Shown here one piece after another: positions 29,902-59,585 of a stretch of 64,000 nucleotides of DNA; the first letter of the stretch is position 1, and every line of letters starts with the position of its first letter. The notes beneath the pieces were generated by a model. The model saw nothing but the letters and a program-made list of their open reading frames with translations, did not search any database and was not told the DNA's origin. The position numbers were made by a program, and so were the translations under genes. This stretch comes from Candidatus Saccharimonadota bacterium (lineage in GTDB: Bacteria > Patescibacteriota > Saccharimonadia > Saccharimonadales > Saccharimonadaceae). Location: positions 1-64,000 of the forward strand of contig JAFWMY010000014.1 in the NCBI GenBank assembly GCA_017545485.1, in the 5' to 3' direction.

Positions 29902-31329
29902 ATGCATTTTAAGACTATTTTCAAATCCCTAAAAAACAAAGACATGTTGAAACGAGTATTAATTATACTCGGTATTATTGTTGCCTATCGTTTGTTAGCG
30001 CAAATTCCAGTGCCGATGGGTGATGCCTCTACTTTTAGGGAAGCAGTCTCTAATTTAATGAGTAAGTCTGACTTTTCTTCTTTTCTCAATTTGATTTCTG
30101 GTGGTGGGCTAGCCTCTTTTAGCATTATTCTAGTAGGCTTATCACCGTATATTACTGGTTCTATCGTAGTTCAATTGTTAACTAAAGCTATTCCGTCACT
30201 TGAGGAATTATCAAATGATGGTGAAACTGGACGACGAAAGATTAATCAATGGACCAGAATGCTCACTGTGCCTTTGGCTATTGTACAGTCTATTGCTTAT
30301 ATTTTTATTCTTTACCAGTCTACACTTTCTGCGAATATTGCCAGTGAGTTTACGCCAACTATTGGTGATTGGGCATTGTCTGTAACTGCTATGACAGCTG
30401 GTTCGGTAATCTTGATGTGGCTTGGCGAATTAATCACTGAACAAGGCGTGGGTAATGGTATTTCTACTTTGATTTTCGCTTCCATTATTTCACAATTACC
30501 GACTACGATGGCATCACTTGGTAATGCTCTATTTGATACAAGCCAAGGAAGCTTAAGTTTATTTGGTTGGTTTGAGTTACCTGTTAACCCAACGGTATTT
30601 TGGATAATCCTCGGTTTTAGTATAGCGATGATTGTGGTAATTTACTTCTTGGTTAAACTTAATGAAGCCCAAAGAATTATTACTATTAATTATGCGAAAC
30701 GTGTGCATGGTAATTCTTCTTATGGTGGAATTAAATCTATTTTACCTATAAAGCTAATTGCTGCAGGTGTAATTCCGGTAATTTTTGCGACTGCATTTTT
30801 GTCTTTGCCTGCGCTCATTGGCCAGGTTATTACTACTATTGATTCTGGAAATGAATTCGGGGCAACTTTGGTTTCGGTATTTTCGGCCCCTTCGGCTAAT
30901 AATTATGCCACAATGTATCCGAATGGTATTACTGGCCAATGGTTTGTTTATCCGGCACTTTACTTTATTCTAGTGTTCATGTTTACTTATTTCTATACTT
31001 CTATTATTTTCAATACTAAAGAAATTGCAGATAATTTGCAAAAACAAGGTGGGTTTATTGAAGGCGTTCGCCCTGGTATAGCTACTTCGCGATATCTATC
31101 CAAGGTCGTTAACCACTTGGATTTGTTTGGTGCGTTTTCCTTAGGGCTAATTGCAATGTTGCCGTTTATCACTGATTATATCTTTATTGTCTTGACCGGT
31201 GCTCCAATTGGTCTTTCAATTTCTGGTACTGGGCTTCTTATCGTAGTTACGGTGGCGTTAGAGAATCTGAGGTCGGTGGATTCTAGAGCTCTAATGATAA
31301 CTTACGACGATTTTAAAGATGAGTCTTAA
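29902..31329 (+). CDS. secY: Protein translocase channel SecY
   Basis: Ten-helix channel of the Sec translocon. The 475-residue sequence has the conserved plug region (LNLISGGGLASFSIILVGLSPYITGSIV) after TM1, the TM2 signature ending in IVVQLL, and the cytoplasmic loop arginines around GFIEGVRPG that bind SecA or ribosomes. It follows rpoBC and precedes a sortase and infA. The usual spc-operon neighbours (rplO upstream; adk and map downstream) are absent here. Its 3' end overlaps the sortase gene by 11 bases. Confidence 0.97.
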   Translation: MHFKTIFKSLKNKDMLKRVLIILGIIVAYRLLAQIPVPMGDASTFREAVSNLMSKSDFSSFLNLISGGGLASFSIILVGLSPYITGSIVVQLLTKAIPSLEELSNDGETGRRKINQWTRMLTVPLAIVQSIAYIFILYQSTLSANIASEFTPTIGDWALSVTAMTAGSVILMWLGELITEQGVGNGISTLIFASIISQLPTTMASLGNALFDTSQGSLSLFGWFELPVNPTVFWIILGFSIAMIVVIYFLVKLNEAQRIITINYAKRVHGNSSYGGIKSILPIKLIAAGVIPVIFATAFLSLPALIGQVITTIDSGNEFGATLVSVFSAPSANNYATMYPNGITGQWFVYPALYFILVFMFTYFYTSIIFNTKEIADNLQKQGGFIEGVRPGIATSRYLSKVVNHLDLFGAFSLGLIAMLPFITDYIFIVLTGAPIGLSISGTGLLIVVTVALENLRSVDSRALMITYDDFKDES

Positions 31330-32017
31330 TATTAAACTTGGTTGGCGAAGAATAATAAAATGGTCACTTTGGGCAATTATTGGCGTTTTATTGTTGATTT
31401 TCTTGATTAGAGTAATAAGTTATGAAAACTATTATTATAATTCAATGGAAGGGAGCGAAAGGGATATTGCCGGTGATATTGGCGCTATCTCAACCGACGA
31501 AGAACTAATTGAAGAAAAACCTGAAGAATCAGAAGTTCGTGAGTATACTGTGGCCGCTGATCGCCCGCGATATCTGACGATTGAAAGGCTAGGCATACGT
31601 AACGCTAGAGTGCTTGCTATGGGGGTAAATAAGAAAGGTGAGCTGGATACTCCTAGAAATATTTTTGACGTCGGTTGGTATGAAAAGTCTGGAAAACCGG
31701 GTCAAGGCGGTACCCTTGTGATTGATGGTCATAATGGTGGGCCACACGTGCATGGTGTATTTAAAGATTTACCTGTTCTTTCCAATGGAGATACTATTCA
31801 AGTAGAAAGAGGAGACGGTGCAGTTTATAAATATAGTGTGGTTGAAAATAAATCCATTCCTTTGGCTGAGGCTGATTCATATATGTCAATTGCTTTTAAG
31901 AGCCCGGTTAAAGGCGAAGAATCTATTACTTTGATTTCTTGTACAGGCGAGTGGTCACAAAAGAGGGGAACTTATCTTTCGCGACAGTTTACAAGAGCTA
32001 TACTTGTGGAAGTCTAA
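31319..32017 (+). CDS. Sortase (membrane-anchored cysteine transpeptidase)
   Basis: Sortases cut a sorting signal on exported proteins and attach them to the cell wall or to pilin subunits. The 232-residue protein has an N-terminal TM helix (about 11-33), an acidic linker and a sortase beta-barrel. The catalytic triad can be read as His138 (VIDGHNGG), Cys208 (TLISCTG, the TLxTC motif) and Arg226 (FTRAIL). The class cannot be assigned firmly. It overlaps secY by 11 bases, so it is co-transcribed with it, in the place where adk and map normally lie. Confidence 0.9.
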   Translation: MSLNIKLGWRRIIKWSLWAIIGVLLLIFLIRVISYENYYYNSMEGSERDIAGDIGAISTDEELIEEKPEESEVREYTVAADRPRYLTIERLGIRNARVLAMGVNKKGELDTPRNIFDVGWYEKSGKPGQGGTLVIDGHNGGPHVHGVFKDLPVLSNGDTIQVERGDGAVYKYSVVENKSIPLAEADSYMSIAFKSPVKGEESITLISCTGEWSQKRGTYLSRQFTRAILVEV

Positions 32018-49623: not shown

Positions 49624-52600
49624 ATGCGGTTAGCTAAACGATATAAGGAGGTTTTCTGCGTATTCTGTTTGGCTGTGATTGCTGGTATTTTTGTGAATTC
49701 TAATTCTGTGTTTGGCATTGCGAAACAGAGTACTATTTCGGTTTCTTTGCAATCTGGTACTTTAGCTTTGCAATTAGCACCTACTCCAGAAGGCGTATTC
49801 GGCGAATCTTCAAGCGCAACTATTTCTGTAACGACAGATAATTATACCGGTTATAATTTATCTCTTGTTTCTAGTAGTGGAACTAGCTTAGTAAACGCTA
49901 ATGATGTTGAGGTTGAATCAATTTCTTCTAATGTTACGGCTCAAGCGTTTGCTACTAACTCCGCTTATAATAACAAATGGGGTTTTAAACCAAGTCAATA
50001 TGTTTCTAGTTCTGGCGGAGTTGATACTGTTGTTAATAATACTGATTTTGTGCCTGCTCCTTCTGGTGACGGATTGATGATTGATAAGACTTCTGCTGCA
50101 AATAGTGTAGCAAATACGTATTCTCTTTCGTTTGGTGCTCGGGCCGATACTACTTTGCCTGCTGGATCTTATTCTGGCACTTACGTTTTAGTTGCTATTG
50201 CTAATTCTATTGTATTTAATGTCACTTATGATGATAATACTACTGACGTCGTTACAAATATGCCGACTCCAAATCCTCAAGTAACATCCATTGATGGTGG
50301 TACTCCGGTTGCAGATAGCTATGTGACGCTTTCCGATGCGGTGCCAGTGCGCAACGAGAAAAAATTTGCCGGCTGGTGTGATGTTGCTACGACTCCTGAT
50401 TCTACAACAGGTGACGATACTTGTTCTGGTACTCTTTATCAGGCAAGTGATAATTTGCCAGTTGATCAGACGGCTGGGCCGAATATTACTTTATATGCTG
50501 TTTGGGTAGATACCTTGTTCCCAATTGTTTGGAACCAAATGGGAGCTTGCACGTTTAATGGAGCAACAAATGGTAATATTACTGGTTCAGAGTGTGAAGA
50601 CTATTGGGATGTTAGATTTATTGATACTGAAGTGCCGCTATATAGTCAAGCTAATTTCAGTAAAGATTATGAAATTCATTTTACGATTGATCATTATCTT
50701 CCTAGCGAGCAGGTGGATTATTATGGATCTGAGGATAATGGTCAACAGACTTTCGTAAATGATAAGCTTGGTTCTAACGCTGGTGACAAAAAAGCTCCTG
50801 GTGTCGTCGTAAGGCGTAATGGTGGCAGTAATATAGATATTAATTCCAAATATAGTGATGCCCAAATAAGTGCTCCGCATAATTATCAACAAGTCAGTGA
50901 TGTTTCCGTCTTCAGGCTAGATGGCACTATGTATTATAGTTTGAATGGTGGTCCGCTGATTTTCCTCCAAAATCTCCCATCAAATTATAGCCAGTTCTTT
51001 GGTCTTCATACTTGGTTTGGTGCTTATCCAAGAGATGACTGCACTGGCGATGATTATGTCTGTACTAGTGCTAAACGTATTTTGCAGGGCACTTTATCTA
51101 ATATGTATATTAGGCTCGGCGAGTATTCTGATGACGACGTTCATACCATTAACTTCAAAAAGAATGATGGCACGACTGCTAATGAAACGACTTATTTAAT
51201 TAAAGATGGTGGCTCAATTACTACTTTGCCTTCCGCCCCAACTTATACTAACCACATATTCCAGGGTTGGTTTACGGCGCAAACTGGTGGTACTGAAGTA
51301 ACTACTTCTACAGTTCCGACTGCTTCGACAGATTATTATGCTCATTGGCTGGGGACAGTGGCAATTGCAGATATTACTACGACTCAAATTGCTCTTCAGC
51401 CTGGTAATTCAGAAACTATAATTATCACGAATAGTAGTGAACTCGAACCATATGAATTTAGCTCTAGTAATCCTAGCGTTGCTACGGTTAATCAGAATAC
51501 TGGTGAAGTTACGGCTGTGACAGCCGGCACGACTACTATTACAATTACTGGTACGATTTCTGGGGAAACTAAGACTGTTCCTGTAACAGTAGCTGGACAG
51601 ACATATAATGTTTATTTTGACTCGCAAGGCGGTTCTGCTGTAAGTCCAAACCCTGTAGAGGTAGGCGATGGCGGCATGATTAATCCTTTGCCTACTTCTA
51701 TCAAGGCAAACAGCGAACTTGAGGGTTGGTACACTGAGCCAAATGGTGGTGGAACTAAGTTAACGACTGCCATTGTATTTGTCTCGAATACTCCGAAACA
51801 ATACTATGCAAATTGGGTAGAACAGCATTATGTTTGTAAGCCAGCTACATCACTTCATGTTGAACCATGTACGAGAACCAGCGCTGGGTGTTCTGCGGCC
51901 GGTTATACTAACAAAGATATTACTTATGGTTCGCTTATTCAGCAGGGTGCAACTTCCTTAGTTGCCGGCAATGCTATGACTTGTGATATTAATGCAGATG
52001 GTTACTTTGATGAGGCGGATGAGAGATTCTATTATTTGACCGATGTGGGCGATAATGCTGCATTGATTTACTATAAGAGTATTAATAATAACGAAAACCT
52101 TTGGAACGATGCTTTGACGTTGCTTCCAACTTCAAGTACGACTGGTTGGACTAACCCTCATCTAGTAACATTTGGCACTGGTGATTACAATGGTAAAGTC
52201 GCAAGATATATGAGCTATAACGAGGCAAGAGCAACTTGTAATAATACTACAAATAACTTTGGTACTGGCGGGAAGTGTGTTTATATTCTTGAACAGTCCA
52301 ATTTTGCCTACACTGATATTCGTGATGGCTATTGGCTTGGAAGTACAAATAATTCAAGAGTCCATACGTCTAGTCGTGGTATTACTTCCAATTCTACTAG
52401 GAATGGTGTACGTCCTGTGATTGAGGTGCCGATGGACTATGTATCTCTTCACGTTCAAGCGCAGTTTGACATTACATTTGATCCACATAATGGTGACTCT
52501 ACCACTACTGTCACAATTGACGAGGGAGATTCACTTAGTACAAATATTCCAGCCAATCCAACTTATACTGATCATTTATTCCAAGGTTGGTTTACAGCAG

Positions 52601-55600
52601 CGACTGGTGGCGAACAGATTAATTCCAGCACTGTTCCGTCTGGAGGTACTACTTATCATGCACAGTGGCTAAAAACTGTAGCTTTGGCAGAGCTTCAGCG
52701 TGATACGATTGCGGTTGAGCCAAGTGGAACTGCAAATATCGTAGTGACCAACTCCTCTGAACTTGAACCTTATACATTTACATCAAATAATTCTTCAATT
52801 GCTACAGTTGACTCGGCGGGTGAAATAACTGGTGTCACTAATGGTACTACTACAATCACGATGACTGGCACCACTTCCGGCGCTACGAAGACTATTACTG
52901 TAAATGTCACGACATTACTCCCAGTAACTCAGGCAATTATCGGAAATACCGATCTTACCACAACGGTGGGTGGACAAACTACTGTCATAGTTACTAACTC
53001 TGCCGAACTTGAGCCATACACCTTCTCTTCCAGTAACACTTCGATTGCAACTGTAGATGCTGCCGGCGTAATTACTGGTGTGGGTTCTGGGACTACGAAT
53101 ATCATAATGACTGGTTCGAACTCTGGCCTTACTAAGACGCTTGAGGTAGAAATCACCGCTGCGCCCGTGACTATGTATAATGTTACCTTTAATCCGAACG
53201 GCGGTTCGTTCAGTGACCCAAGTGATGCATCAAAACAGGTAGAAGACGGTACTGCAGTTGGAGCCTTACCGACTCCGACTAAGGCTAATCATATGTTCTT
53301 TGGCTGGTACAAGGATGACGGCACGTTCTACCAGGAAGTTTATCCAGAGGAAATCATCGATGACGATGTGACTTATTATGCGAAGTGGGTTGAGGATACT
53401 GCTAGTTTTCCGATTGTCTGGGCAGAAACTAATGCTTGTAACTTCAATGGAACGTCTAATCTAACTGGCGACTATTGCCTTGAGGACGCTGTATCTGGCA
53501 ACCCAATTGATAAGACGAAGTATTACATTGATACTGCCGTCCAGCTATTTACGCAGGCGAATTTCCAGAAAGACTTTGAAGTTGGGCTCAATATCGTGTC
53601 ATATGATGGTAGCAGTTCAGTAAATCAAGCTACATTTGTAACTTCTAAGGCAGAGAACTTGTCTGGTTGGCCAGGATTTACTCTCAGAAGAAGCGGTTCC
53701 AGCGCTAACCTTGAGCTGACTGAGAGGTTTAGCATGAATTCTCAAGCTGTTTCCGCACCGCTTGTTGCTATAAGTAGTGTAAATCAGGTAAGAATTGCAA
53801 GAATTGGTGAAAAGATATACTACTCATGGAATGGTGCAGCCTATACGCTCCTACAAGATATTTCCGCAAATACTACGCGCTTTGATACTAATGTGTGGTT
53901 CGGCGCTACATTAAACTCCGCCGGTACTGGCTCGCAGCGACCGATTTATGCAACACTTACTGATATGTATGTCAGACTTGGTGTACCTACTGATTACGTA
54001 ATTGAACTTGATGTTAATGATGGTTCGATGAGCGAGCCAAGTAGCTTTACAGTTATAATTGGCGATGAACTAGGGACCTTGCCGACTCCAACTCCGCCAA
54101 ACGAAAACTATACCTTTGTTGGATGGTTTGATGAATCGGTTTCGCCAGCCGTCCAGGTTACTTCTACCACAAGGCCAGATGGTAATAAGAAATATATAGC
54201 TCATTATTCATACGATTCGTCTGATGAGCCGGTGATATTTAATATAGCAAATAATGCTCTTCAAGGATATCAGACCCTCATTAACAGTTGGGTGCCAAGT
54301 CCAATCAATATTACTATATTTAATGAAGACTCACCTATTAACGATTCAACCTGGGGCGACACAAGTGAACTTAGCGAAAAACAATTCTGGGAAGGTATAA
54401 AAGGCAATTTTGAAAATAATCTATGTTCAATACCTAGTTATGGTGATGCCACCAAACCTTTAAGTTCACTTACCGCTTGGGGAAATGGTTCGAATGATTG
54501 TTCAAAACCAAAGGCTTATGACACCAAAATTGGCGCAGCACTTAATGTCTACCTTGACGATGAAAATGGTGCTCAAGTTGCATATGCTAACGCAACGAAT
54601 GGCATCATACATAACATGATTCCTGGCCAGACATATTATTGGGAGAAAGCAGATGATAGCACGGTCTATGGCTATGTGACAGCTACCTCTGTAAATGGTA
54701 GAAGACCAATTGAGCTTAGCGCAAATCGCAATACTCGTGACCTTGGTGGTTTGCCAGTGACCTATACAGATAGTAACAATCAGACTGTAACAGGTACACT
54801 GGCTTATGGTAGATTATTCCGCGGTGAAAGACTATGGAATACTCCAGCAACCGAACTATATAATCTAGGCATCAATAAACAGTATGATGTAGGCGATCCT
54901 ACCGAATATGCGAATGATACGAAACTCAGTGATTATAAATGGGATCCGGTAATTCATTACAATTTTGACTATCATTCTGGGGATGAAGATAATGCTTCAT
55001 CTAATTATATGAAGGCCTGGACGGCTGTAACTGATATCATGACAGATATCACAAGTGCTAATAATCCAAAGAATATTTATTTCCATTGTCGTGTTGGCGC
55101 TGATCGTACTGGTACAACAGCATATCTGCTTGAAGGTTTGCTCGGTGTACCCGATGAGGCAAGGTATGAGGAATATGAGCTTACAAATCTGTCTGGTTTT
55201 TATGATAGAACTAGATATTATAAGCAGAAAACTAGCACTAATAACTTGAAGTTTGTCTTCATGATGGAATATGTAAAAACTAATGCAGATATTCTTAACT
55301 GGTATATGAGTAACCCAGACTCTGACATGAATTTGGTACAAGCCTTTAGGTCGGCGATGACGGTGCTATCTTCTTCACAAAATTCTTCTCAATCTAATTC
55401 TCAATCTAATTCTCAGAGTTTTAATACAAATACAGCGAACAGGAGTAATGCTGCCATATCTGATGATATGAGCAATTCCGACAGTTCCAAAGATGCTTAC
55501 TCTGGGTACGAAGCCCCTCTTGGCGTAACTACGAGATACAACAACACGAGCAACGATACTAATTCGGAGTTCTCCCCTGCGGGTCTAATCGCATTGGCTG

Positions 55601-55662
55601 TCGTTGCGGTTGCTTCTACTGCTATGACTTCTTATGCTTTGGCTAAAGAAGACGAAGAATAA
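49624..55662 (+). CDS. Giant surface protein with InlB-type repeats, Big_2 domains and a tyrosine-phosphatase domain
   Basis: 2012 residues. A signal peptide (about 1-31) leads the protein. Six InlB B-repeat-like units (consensus F-x-x-N-G-G ... G-W-Y ... Y-x-A-x-W) lie near 196, 506, 660, 946, 1184 and 1458. Two related domains of about 200 residues at 299-503 and 1262-1457 look LamG/concanavalin-like. Three Big_2 Ig-like domains lie at about 578-660, 1019-1095 and 1100-1180. Residues 1700-1930 match a Y_phosphatase3-type domain: NRNTRDLGG, GRLFRGERL and the Cx5R loop HCRVGADRTG (Cys1822, Arg1828). A Ser/Asn/Gln-rich linker and a C-terminal TM helix (about 1983-2003) with an acidic tail follow. 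It is an exported adhesin-like protein; the phosphatase substrate is unknown. Confidence 0.88.
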   Translation: MRLAKRYKEVFCVFCLAVIAGIFVNSNSVFGIAKQSTISVSLQSGTLALQLAPTPEGVFGESSSATISVTTDNYTGYNLSLVSSSGTSLVNANDVEVESISSNVTAQAFATNSAYNNKWGFKPSQYVSSSGGVDTVVNNTDFVPAPSGDGLMIDKTSAANSVANTYSLSFGARADTTLPAGSYSGTYVLVAIANSIVFNVTYDDNTTDVVTNMPTPNPQVTSIDGGTPVADSYVTLSDAVPVRNEKKFAGWCDVATTPDSTTGDDTCSGTLYQASDNLPVDQTAGPNITLYAVWVDTLFPIVWNQMGACTFNGATNGNITGSECEDYWDVRFIDTEVPLYSQANFSKDYEIHFTIDHYLPSEQVDYYGSEDNGQQTFVNDKLGSNAGDKKAPGVVVRRNGGSNIDINSKYSDAQISAPHNYQQVSDVSVFRLDGTMYYSLNGGPLIFLQNLPSNYSQFFGLHTWFGAYPRDDCTGDDYVCTSAKRILQGTLSNMYIRLGEYSDDDVHTINFKKNDGTTANETTYLIKDGGSITTLPSAPTYTNHIFQGWFTAQTGGTEVTTSTVPTASTDYYAHWLGTVAIADITTTQIALQPGNSETIIITNSSELEPYEFSSSNPSVATVNQNTGEVTAVTAGTTTITITGTISGETKTVPVTVAGQTYNVYFDSQGGSAVSPNPVEVGDGGMINPLPTSIKANSELEGWYTEPNGGGTKLTTAIVFVSNTPKQYYANWVEQHYVCKPATSLHVEPCTRTSAGCSAAGYTNKDITYGSLIQQGATSLVAGNAMTCDINADGYFDEADERFYYLTDVGDNAALIYYKSINNNENLWNDALTLLPTSSTTGWTNPHLVTFGTGDYNGKVARYMSYNEARATCNNTTNNFGTGGKCVYILEQSNFAYTDIRDGYWLGSTNNSRVHTSSRGITSNSTRNGVRPVIEVPMDYVSLHVQAQFDITFDPHNGDSTTTVTIDEGDSLSTNIPANPTYTDHLFQGWFTAATGGEQINSSTVPSGGTTYHAQWLKTVALAELQRDTIAVEPSGTANIVVTNSSELEPYTFTSNNSSIATVDSAGEITGVTNGTTTITMTGTTSGATKTITVNVTTLLPVTQAIIGNTDLTTTVGGQTTVIVTNSAELEPYTFSSSNTSIATVDAAGVITGVGSGTTNIIMTGSNSGLTKTLEVEITAAPVTMYNVTFNPNGGSFSDPSDASKQVEDGTAVGALPTPTKANHMFFGWYKDDGTFYQEVYPEEIIDDDVTYYAKWVEDTASFPIVWAETNACNFNGTSNLTGDYCLEDAVSGNPIDKTKYYIDTAVQLFTQANFQKDFEVGLNIVSYDGSSSVNQATFVTSKAENLSGWPGFTLRRSGSSANLELTERFSMNSQAVSAPLVAISSVNQVRIARIGEKIYYSWNGAAYTLLQDISANTTRFDTNVWFGATLNSAGTGSQRPIYATLTDMYVRLGVPTDYVIELDVNDGSMSEPSSFTVIIGDELGTLPTPTPPNENYTFVGWFDESVSPAVQVTSTTRPDGNKKYIAHYSYDSSDEPVIFNIANNALQGYQTLINSWVPSPINITIFNEDSPINDSTWGDTSELSEKQFWEGIKGNFENNLCSIPSYGDATKPLSSLTAWGNGSNDCSKPKAYDTKIGAALNVYLDDENGAQVAYANATNGIIHNMIPGQTYYWEKADDSTVYGYVTATSVNGRRPIELSANRNTRDLGGLPVTYTDSNNQTVTGTLAYGRLFRGERLWNTPATELYNLGINKQYDVGDPTEYANDTKLSDYKWDPVIHYNFDYHSGDEDNASSNYMKAWTAVTDIMTDITSANNPKNIYFHCRVGADRTGTTAYLLEGLLGVPDEARYEEYELTNLSGFYDRTRYYKQKTSTNNLKFVFMMEYVKTNADILNWYMSNPDSDMNLVQAFRSAMTVLSSSQNSSQSNSQSNSQSFNTNTANRSNAAISDDMSNSDSSKDAYSGYEAPLGVTTRYNNTSNDTNSEFSPAGLIALAVVAVASTAMTSYALAKEDEE

Positions 55663-56820: not shown

Positions 56821-57489
56821 TTAAAATCCTCTCATTTTATCAAACGGGAAAAGTCGGAAGATAACCGGTCCGATAATTCTACAATATGGGATTGTACCAA
56901 GACCGTTTCGCGAATCCCATGAATTATTGCCTTCACGATTATCGCCAGAAACGAATAATTCACCGTTAGGCACCGTTGTATCAACTTCTCCGGAGGTTTT
57001 TTCTTTCGGACCATCTGTTTCAGACTTTCGCCACTCGGTGTCGTAAACAAAACCGTCAGGGTGTTCTTCATTATAAATTGTCATAATGCCATCTTTGACT
57101 GTTACACGTTCACCTGGAAAAGCAATAACACGCTTAATAATATATTGATCACTGACATTTGACGGAACACTACATGTCATAGGATTGGCAATTCCTTGTG
57201 CTTGATATTCTTTCACTTTCTCTTCATCCTCGTTTAAAAATACAATGATTTGACCACGTTCTGGTACATATTCTTGGCCGAAAAGATGAGCCCAGGAAAC
57301 GGCCGCGCGGTTTACTATTACGCGGTCATCTTGATGTAGGGTATTTTCCATACTCCCGCCAACTACATTGTATGAACGGTATATAAACGTATTTAAAAAG
57401 ATGGTCCCAAGCACAATAACAATAATAAACCCACCTAAGCTTAAGATATCTTTAAGTAGTGGATGTTTTTGAAAAAATTTTGGTTCCAT
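56821..57489 (-). CDS. lepB: Signal peptidase I
   Basis: Membrane serine protease that removes signal peptides of exported proteins. A TM helix lies at about 14-36, then the catalytic Ser in VGGSMENTL and the Lys in YIIKRVIAFPGE, with the conserved GDNREGNNSWDSR box near the end. The 222-residue length fits the family. TGC-TATAAT ends seven bases before the ATG at 57489. Many predicted exported proteins in this window would be its substrates. Confidence 0.94.
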   Translation of the reverse strand: MEPKFFQKHPLLKDILSLGGFIIVIVLGTIFLNTFIYRSYNVVGGSMENTLHQDDRVIVNRAAVSWAHLFGQEYVPERGQIIVFLNEDEEKVKEYQAQGIANPMTCSVPSNVSDQYIIKRVIAFPGERVTVKDGIMTIYNEEHPDGFVYDTEWRKSETDGPKEKTSGEVDTTVPNGELFVSGDNREGNNSWDSRNGLGTIPYCRIIGPVIFRLFPFDKMRGF

Positions 57490-57496
57490 AGCAATA

Positions 57497-57505
57497 ATTA
57501 TAGCA
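57497..57505 (-). promoter_or_regulatory. Extended -10 of lepB
   Basis: TGC-TATAAT on the minus strand, seven bases before the lepB ATG; no ribosome-binding site fits. Confidence 0.7.
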
Positions 57506-57583
57506 CAAATAGATGTTATGGTTTGTTTTTTTATCTGTTTTTTATGCTTGGTTATGTTAATTTTCAGTTTAGTTTAAGAAATC

Positions 57584-57592
57584 TGATATAAT
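57584..57592 (+). promoter_or_regulatory. Extended -10 of the membrane protein gene at 57601
   Basis: TGA-TATAAT, hexamer at 57587-57592, eight bases before the ATG. Confidence 0.65.
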
Positions 57593-57600
57593 ATACTTAT

Positions 57601-58383
57601 ATGGCAGATTATATTTTAGCAAGAAAGTCCAGAAACATTGCGAGTAATCTCGTTCATATCTTTTTGAATCTTTTGCTTGGTGTTGGGTCGGTAATTATTA
57701 CTGTATTATCTGGAAGCCCCGTACTTGGTTTACTTTTGGTTTTGGTCGCAAAATGGCGTGTTTTTGCGGTAAGGGCTAGATATTTATGGTTAAACATTAA
57801 GTCAAATCTAGTAGATTTGATTGTTGGTTTTAGTGTCGTATTATTAACTTACTATGCTGGTACCTCTTTCTTAGCGGTTGATTTTATTCTGGCTATATTC
57901 TATTGTGTTTGGCTATTGTTTATAAAGCCACTATCCTCAGAAAACGCCACCTTAGCACAATCTTTAATTGCTGTATTCTTAGGAACTTCAGCGGCTGCAA
58001 TTATGACTGCTGGGCTTAATTCTGTTTTGATAGTTTTACTTGAGTTTTTGATTGGTTATGCGGCTAGCCGTCATGTTTTAGTTCAAAGTAGTGATAAAAA
58101 CTTTACTTTGACTACACTAGTTTGTGGTTTAGTGTTTGCCGAAGTTGCTTGGTTATGTGATTCATGGGCTATCGTCTATACCTTTGGTGCTTCTGGTATA
58201 CGTATTCCTCAGGTTGCAATCATTTTAACTATCTTTGCTTTTGTGTATAACTATGCAAGGCAGGCTATGATTAAATATCAAGACGACTTTAGGTTTAAAC
58301 ATATTCTTGGCCCGGTGGTTTTTGGCGCGCTATTAGTTGGTATTATTGTTATATTTTTTAGTAACCCAATTTTTAATATTTAA
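57601..58383 (+). CDS. Polytopic membrane protein of unknown function
   Basis: The 260-residue protein has about seven to eight hydrophobic helices joined by short loops; charged residues are mainly at the N-terminus and in the loop near 55-70 (KWRVFAVRARY). I do not recognise a family. It is followed eight bases later by htrA, which has a strong Shine-Dalgarno overlapping this gene's stop region, so the two are probably one transcript. Confidence 0.75.
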   Translation: MADYILARKSRNIASNLVHIFLNLLLGVGSVIITVLSGSPVLGLLLVLVAKWRVFAVRARYLWLNIKSNLVDLIVGFSVVLLTYYAGTSFLAVDFILAIFYCVWLLFIKPLSSENATLAQSLIAVFLGTSAAAIMTAGLNSVLIVLLEFLIGYAASRHVLVQSSDKNFTLTTLVCGLVFAEVAWLCDSWAIVYTFGASGIRIPQVAIILTIFAFVYNYARQAMIKYQDDFRFKHILGPVVFGALLVGIIVIFFSNPIFNI

Positions 58384-58391
58384 GGAGGAAA

Positions 58392-59585
58392 ATGGAAAAT
58401 CAATCAAAGGGCGAAATTGTTGAAGCAGAAAAAAACAATAAAACGGAGGCGCGGTCTGAAACTCCGAAAAGCAATGGTTACAGAGCAATAATTGCTTTAT
58501 CTATTGTCGCTATGTTTTTGGGGGCTGGAGGCTTGGTATTTGGCTTGATGGCATATGAAAAATCATCTACACCGATAACTTTCCTAGGTGGTGGTACAGA
58601 TGGCAATTCTGCAAACTTTAAAGAAGGTTCAATTGCAGATATAGCTGATAAAGTTTCAAAGAGCGTAGTATCAATTGTCACTTCTACGGTAACGAAGAAC
58701 TATTTTGGGCAGGATTATTCTTCTTCGGCTGCAGGCACAGGTGTAATTGCAACTGCTGATGGCTATGTTATTACTAATAAACACGTGATTAATGGTGCAA
58801 CCAAAGTTACTGTGATTTTGGATGACGGTACGATTTATGAAGATGTTGAAGTCGTTGCAACTGATCCACTAGATGACATCGCTTATCTCAAGATTAAAGA
58901 TGTTTCAGATTTAACACCTGCTACGCTTGGAGACTCTAAGACAATTAGCGTTGGGCAACAGGTAATTGCTATTGGAAATGCTCTCGGTGAATATCAAAAT
59001 ACTGTTACTTCTGGTATTATATCTGGAACTGGACGTTCTATCACAGCATCAGATGGTTCTGGATATAATGTAGAAACCTTAACTGATATGATTCAGACAG
59101 ATGCAGCAATCAACTCTGGTAATTCCGGAGGCCCTCTCGTAAATGCAGCCGGTGAAGTAATTGGTATAAATACTGCTACTTCTACTTCTGCCGAGAATAT
59201 GGGTTTTGCCATTCCAATTTCTTCTGTTAAAGGTATGCTTAACCAGCTTATAGAGACTGGTAAAGCTGAAAGAGCTTATATTGGTGTTTATACAATGCAA
59301 GTAACACCTGAAGTTGCAAAAGCATATCAATTGCCGGTCTCGGCTGGAGAATACATTTATAATTCTTCTTTGTATTCTGCTATTGTAAAAGATTCTCCGG
59401 CGGCTAAAGCTGGACTTAAAGATAAAGATATTGTTACGGCGATTAATGGAGTTAAAATTGGTACTTCTGGAACTTTATCTGACTTAATCGGAGAATATAA
59501 GCCTGGTGATACCGTCCAACTTACCGTGATTCGCGAAGGGAAGGAAATTGCTGTGAACGTTACCTTAGGGGCGTACAAAAAGTAG
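58392..59585 (+). CDS. HtrA/DegP-like serine protease with PDZ domain
   Basis: A membrane-anchored protease of 397 residues for quality control of exported proteins. A cytoplasmic N-terminus (1-30) precedes a TM helix (about 31-55). The trypsin-like domain has the triad His in ITNKHV, Asp in DDIAYLKI and Ser in INSGNSGGPL. One PDZ domain covers about 295-390. AAGGAGG at 58382-58388 directs the ATG at 58392. Its last 21 bases overlap prmC on the other strand, and its terminator lies inside prmC. Confidence 0.95.
   Translation: MENQSKGEIVEAEKNNKTEARSETPKSNGYRAIIALSIVAMFLGAGGLVFGLMAYEKSSTPITFLGGGTDGNSANFKEGSIADIADKVSKSVVSIVTSTVTKNYFGQDYSSSAAGTGVIATADGYVITNKHVINGATKVTVILDDGTIYEDVEVVATDPLDDIAYLKIKDVSDLTPATLGDSKTISVGQQVIAIGNALGEYQNTVTSGIISGTGRSITASDGSGYNVETLTDMIQTDAAINSGNSGGPLVNAAGEVIGINTATSTSAENMGFAIPISSVKGMLNQLIETGKAERAYIGVYTMQVTPEVAKAYQLPVSAGEYIYNSSLYSAIVKDSPAAKAGLKDKDIVTAINGVKIGTSGTLSDLIGEYKPGDTVQLTVIREGKEIAVNVTLGAYKK

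Follow-up and report, generated by a model that had tools for sequence, protein, structure and literature searches.

A giant exported phosphatase protein in a Saccharibacterium

The window (the whole 64,000-nucleotide stretch analyzed here) lies in the 885-kb genome of a Saccharibacterium. It contains an intact forward-strand ORF (49624-55662) that encodes a protein of 2012 aa (Table 1), the sole Y_phosphatase3 protein encoded in this genome. The giant is a real, conserved, exported phosphatase adhesin; its component parts are already known, and their combination in a group of Saccharibacteria looks new. The arrangement recurs in about 20 MAGs of other species and is therefore not an assembly artefact. 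Hydrophobic segments at about aa 8 to 26 and about aa 1983 to 2006 bear out the signal peptide and the C-terminal membrane helix proposed in the initial annotation. Cleavage of the signal peptide is likely between G31 and I32, judged by eye from the pattern [SV][FY][AG] followed by [IV]A in homologues.

Three domains were added to those of the initial annotation, namely, the N-terminal domain (about aa 32 to 193), a Cys-rich domain (735 to 943), and a domain linked to the phosphatase (1532 to 1693), which accompanies the phosphatase in every case. The N-terminal domain is a beta domain, and relatives of it start about eight other ORFs of the genome. Searched alone against Pfam, regions 30 to 193, 735 to 943, and 1532 to 1693 matched no family, and the Cys-rich domain of 20 homologues matched none either. 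A fold search was run with a model containing 735 to 943, which barely tested the Cys-rich part.

Table 1. Features of the giant gene and its product
Feature	aa	Position in window	Strand	Basis
Exported phosphatase adhesin ORF	2012 in total	49624..55662	+	Homologues with matching architecture
Signal peptide	1-31	49624..49716	+	Hydrophobic peak and homologue N termini
N-terminal domain	about 30-193	49711..50202	+	Alignment with relatives; no Pfam family
Degenerate InlB-type repeat with Cys-pair insertion	about 193-296	50200..50511	+	Weak, below cutoff
LamG-like domain 1	299-498	50518..51117	+	Alignment and fold matches
InlB-type (Listeria-Bacteroides) repeat	507-574	51142..51345	+	Pfam and repeat profile
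Big_2 domain, best of three	584-650	51373..51573	+	Pfam
InlB-type repeat	661-729	51604..51810	+	Repeat profile
Cys-rich domain, six conserved Cys, no known family	735-943	51826..52452	+	
InlB-type repeat	948-1014	52465..52665	+	Repeat profile
Big_2 domains 2 and 3	1015-1184	52666..53175	+	Pfam; borders read from sequence
InlB-type repeat	1185-1254	53176..53385	+	Pfam and repeat profile
LamG-like domain 2	1262-1452	53407..53979	+	35% identity to copy 1
InlB-type repeat	1458-1527	53995..54204	+	Repeat profile
Phosphatase-linked domain, invariant Cys1601 and Cys1626	1532-1693	54217..54702	+	No Pfam family
Y_phosphatase3 domain, NTRDLGG at 1703, P-loop HC(1822)RVGADRTG	1694-1916	54703..55371	+	Pfam, fold, homologues
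Disordered S/N/T-rich linker with PLGV (aa 1965-1968), membrane helix (aa about 1987-2006), KEDEE tail		55372..55659	+	

The phosphatase domain has the PtpB fold and lacks the P-loop lysine

Pfam assigned aa 1697 to 1906 to Y_phosphatase3 (PF13350; E 1.4e-17, 64.9 bits against a curated cutoff of 22.2), and both the NTRDLGG motif and the catalytic Cys1822 were located where they had been proposed. Structure prediction, for which the initial annotation had called, was performed with AlphaFold on aa 1532 to 1916 from an alignment of 25 sequences. The model has a mean pLDDT of 75, with the phosphatase mostly above 85 except in a loop region that follows the P-loop helix, and it contains the phosphatase P-loop fold. 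The top Foldseek matches were a Clostridioides difficile PTP (E 8.6e-9) and Mycobacterium tuberculosis PtpB (E 2.6e-6). A second structural aligner returned the same two proteins, PtpB (1ywf) with a Z score of 16.2 (rmsd 2.9, 180 aligned) and the C. difficile PTP with 15.9, while the remaining PTPs reached at most 13.2. The domain thus agrees with an enzyme of the Y_phosphatase3/PtpB class: its fold is the expected one, and its P-loop is intact and strongly conserved. Cys, Asp, and Arg of the P-loop are invariant across 37 distinct homologues (HC..G[AS]DR[TA]G), and the enzyme is likely active.

In PtpB-type atypical lipid phosphatases (ALPs), the Lys of the HCXXGKDR[TA]G signature is strictly conserved; experiments on relatives of PtpB from Listeria and Leishmania showed that catalysis depends on the Asp, whose loss leaves less than 10% of the activity, and that phosphoinositide binding depends on the Lys (PMC3091653). 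Changing the Lys to Ala in these relatives cost much of the activity on PI(3,5)P2 and left about 10% of that on PI(3)P (PMC3091653). The window protein has Ala in place of this Lys, and each homologue has Ala or Ser, which speaks against a preference for lipids like that of PtpB. The phosphoinositides listed earlier among the substrates were therefore a poor guess, and judging from the P-loop residues a lipid substrate appears less likely for the giant's phosphatase than for PtpB. The Lys is kept in three stand-alone exported Y_phosphatase3 proteins of other Saccharibacteria in the family (L006 to L008, canonical GKDR loop), so the phosphatases of the giants form a distinct branch. Near the second strand, the DLR motif has degenerated to YDVGDPTE in the window's genus, though L033, a homologue from another genus, has YDLRK.

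The stalk combines InlB-type repeats, Big_2 domains, and LamG-like domains

With the whole protein as a query, Pfam found the Flg_new/Listeria-Bacteroides repeat in five stretches (E 2.6e-42, 143.2 bits) and Big_2 in three (E 3.1e-17), the latter in agreement with the three Big_2 domains annotated before. Positions of the InlB-type repeats were set by a profile built from the five clear repeats. A sixth repeat had also been claimed; the candidate (about aa 193 to 296) scored 16.4 bits (E 0.0099) against a cutoff of 27 and was weak in homologues too, so that five repeats are clear and the sixth is degenerate.

The two LamG-like domains matched no Pfam LamG or carbohydrate-binding model at E values up to 10. 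The AlphaFold model of aa 299 to 943 (pLDDT 83) nevertheless showed the jelly-roll fold of LamG/concanavalin-like lectins in copy 1, which matched the lectin domain of NanB and NanC sialidases and agrin LG domains (Z of about 11 to 12.4; NanB, 12.4; agrin LG, 11.1). This fold match justifies the name LamG-like, and copy 2 is 35% identical to copy 1. A LamG-like domain was present in 10 of 40 congeners. The domain types suggest that the stalk may be adhesive. About 15 ORFs of the genome, on contigs C3, C6, C14, C20, and C23 and up to 3371 aa long, carry InlB-type repeats, and several of them end in a domain with the motif W[TS]S...VRCV.

The phosphatase is extracellular and lies close to the membrane

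The mature protein has 17 Cys residues, of which 16 are in pairs and the single unpaired one is catalytic, a pattern common to the window protein and ten full-length relatives. Together with the signal peptide and the extracellular-type domains, this pairing places the phosphatase outside the cell and not in the cytoplasm. The genome encodes two DsbA-like thioredoxin proteins, and no VKOR for disulfide formation was found in it. It also contains no Hanks-type kinase, which leaves fewer internal substrates. The phosphatase had been thought to be held outside by the adhesive repeats. It is indeed outside, but it lies C-terminal to the repeats, with about 70 residues between it and the membrane helix; since this helix is C-terminal, the repeats point outward and the enzyme sits near the cell's own envelope. 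Such a membrane-proximal enzyme could act at the surface of its own cell no less plausibly than on a partner.

In 17 of the 24 loci the protein closes, like the window protein, with a disordered linker followed by a membrane helix. The other seven (L019, L027, L029, L030, L032, L033, and L034) stop directly after the phosphatase, and a linker and helix split off from the ORF were absent from all frames of the DNA that follows. Sortase anchoring of the giant was considered and rejected: its tail (SEFSPAGLIALAVV..KEDEE) has no LPXTG-like motif before the helix, and PLGV lies further upstream. The genome encodes two sortases, one in the window (31319 to 32017; PF04203, E 4.4e-17) and one on contig C23, and another of its giants (L083) ends in an APDTG-type sorting signal. 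The motif PLG[VIA] occurs in the linkers of 14 loci (among L011 to L031) and of the window protein (PLGV, 55516 to 55527), that is, in 15 proteins; it stands roughly 10 to 30 residues before the helix in a linker that is otherwise unconserved. None of the other giants inspected in the genome has it; it is possibly a processing or sorting signal.

A conserved phosphatase on a mosaic stalk within one family

Strong matches were obtained in 31 of 393 genomes of the class, 26 from the window's genus and 5 from one other genus of the family; a class tally of 33 genomes includes two weak matches. The phylum sample (380 genomes) gave strong matches only in the window's genome and one known carrier, with no giant outside the family, and plasmid records contained only distant stand-alone phosphatases (23 to 33% identity). 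A scan of named genomes yielded 24 loci, all from Candidatus Saccharibacteria, and the animals named for these MAGs are all ruminants (sheep, goat, water buffalo, yak, and roe deer). One genome of the window's genus (G250) carries three phosphatase giants, on contigs C10, C11, and C12. Complete relatives are 1839 to 2374 aa long, and nearly all keep the domain order N-terminal, LamG-like 1, Cys-rich, LamG-like 2, phosphatase-linked, and phosphatase. L033 and L034, which represent the other genus among the named loci, have the phosphatase end in common with these but match the stalk only in part.

Where relatives lie on long contigs, most of them have rubrerythrin, the giant, RmuC, and signal peptidase in this order. 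The site between rubrerythrin and RmuC is empty in five congeners, and in L071 (7185 to 10289) it is occupied by a protein of 1035 aa that has N-terminal, Cys-rich, and LamG-like domains but no phosphatase. The conserved locus, the empty sites, and this phosphatase-less version indicate that the gene is the organism's own and not a contaminant; the latter two also mark the phosphatase as a detachable module. Absence of the gene from many congeners implies that the giant is not essential to the lifestyle. The L071 protein stops directly after LamG-like domain 2. After RmuC, the window (56821 to 59585) encodes three proteins found together in most relatives: the signal peptidase, a membrane protein of 260 aa that matches no Pfam family, and an HtrA-like protease.

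Comparison of the window protein with five close relatives gave a dN/dS of 0.017 to 0.030 for the phosphatase (dS of about 0.8 to 1.4), the lowest of the protein, against maxima of 0.32 and 0.35 in the Cys-rich and N-terminal domains, respectively. L012 is 97% identical to the window protein in the phosphatase versus 48% in the Cys-rich domain, and L013 is 94% identical in the Cys-rich domain versus 46% in the N-terminal domain. These values suggest a conserved enzyme riding on a recombining, diversifying stalk.

Proposed function and alternative explanations

Computation establishes the domain layout, the signals for export, the fold, the intactness of the catalytic residues, and strong purifying selection; catalysis itself, binding by the stalk, the partner, and the substrate are inferred. 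The giant is probably a surface stalk with a PtpB-superfamily phosphatase at its membrane base, made by a probably epibiotic Saccharibacterium. The ultrasmall cell would export it through the signal peptide, disulfides would probably lock its domains, and the C-terminal helix would keep it in the membrane. The LamG-like, Big_2, and InlB-type modules of the N-terminal two thirds would make up a long stalk, different from one relative to the next, whose probable ligands are glycans or proteins on a partner or in a matrix. At its base, about 70 flexible residues from the membrane, the Cys-dependent phosphatase would take phosphate off phosphomonoesters brought into the contact zone, most likely from phosphoproteins or small phosphoesters. 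It is reasonable to place this work at the contact with a partner cell.

Whether the stalk merely positions the cell, while the enzyme scavenges phosphate or inositol from phytate, nucleotides, and soluble phosphoesters in the ruminant gut, has to be weighed against this proposal. Phytate is plentiful in ruminant feed, and a membrane-proximal enzyme would suit uptake by its owner. Pho16B, a secreted enzyme with a Y_phosphatase3 domain, acts as a phytase and as a broad phosphatase (PMC6409689), but it keeps the P-loop Lys that the giant lacks. Among Pfam families with E values up to 1, the PTP-like phytase model gave no match, and a 2000-aa multiadhesin carrier, missing from many congeners, would be costly for mere scavenging. 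We regard scavenging as rather unlikely. The phosphatase could instead be an effector on ruminant epithelium or immune cells, as PtpB is for M. tuberculosis, but this appears quite improbable. PtpB acts inside macrophages, whereas there is no sign of delivery of the giant into cells or of animal-cell contact, and no homologue has the lipid-binding Lys, its place being taken by Ala or Ser; the relatives do stem from gut MAGs, and the fold is that of PtpB, a secreted virulence factor (PMC3091653).

Loss of the P-loop Lys and the degenerate DLR motif could also mean that the fold is inactive and serves as a binding module. We find this hard to reconcile with the invariant Cys, Asp, and Arg and with the strongest purifying selection in the protein, particularly since it is the Asp that PtpB relatives need (less than 10% activity without it), the Lys mattering for phosphoinositide binding (PMC3091653). 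Finally, a cytoplasmic or misassembled fusion, for which nothing speaks beyond the odd domain combination, is extremely improbable given the signal peptide, the extracellular-type domains, and the Cys pairing, and the identical fusion in about 20 other MAGs already contradicts it.

Within the preferred reading of a membrane-anchored stalk with a basal phosphatase, we tentatively raise the possibility that some Saccharibacteria dephosphorylate surface molecules of their host bacterium by means of an adhesin-tethered phosphatase from a Lys-less subfamily of PtpB. If true, this would amount to phospho-editing outside the cells, between epibiont and host. How Patescibacteria recognize and act on host cells is described as largely unknown (PMC12206443), and a conserved tethered enzyme with variable adhesive modules offers a concrete, expressible candidate for an enzyme at the host contact. 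With it, the PtpB superfamily would also gain a branch that is anchored, lacks the Lys, and presumably acts on different substrates.

Comparison with known systems

A search of the open-access literature for tyrosine phosphatases in Saccharibacteria or CPR returned no relevant paper. The giant shares the fold, the HCxxGxDR[TA]G motif, and the Cys, Asp, and Arg residues with M. tuberculosis PtpB (MptpB) and ALPs such as Listeria Lmo1800; these are small secreted enzymes with a P-loop Lys, whereas the giant is an anchored protein of 2012 aa with Ala at this position, where its homologues have Ala or Ser. The C. difficile PTP (8DHI/8DHJ) has the same fold and resembles the giant weakly in sequence across the P-loop (E 0.031) but is a single-domain chain of 249 aa without adhesive modules. 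Pho16B, a secreted soil PTP with phytase activity, has a signal peptide and a Y_phosphatase3 domain like the giant, from which it differs as a 38-kDa single-domain enzyme with the canonical Lys (PMC6409689). Listeria internalin B and other InlB-repeat surface proteins share the InlB-type repeats (Flg_new), and an InlB structure was among the fold matches of the aa 299 to 943 model; unlike internalin B, the giant has no leucine-rich repeats and carries an enzyme. The stand-alone exported PTPs L006 to L008 belong to the same Pfam family and have a signal peptide, yet at 370 to 382 aa they consist of a canonical GKDR-loop enzyme without a stalk.
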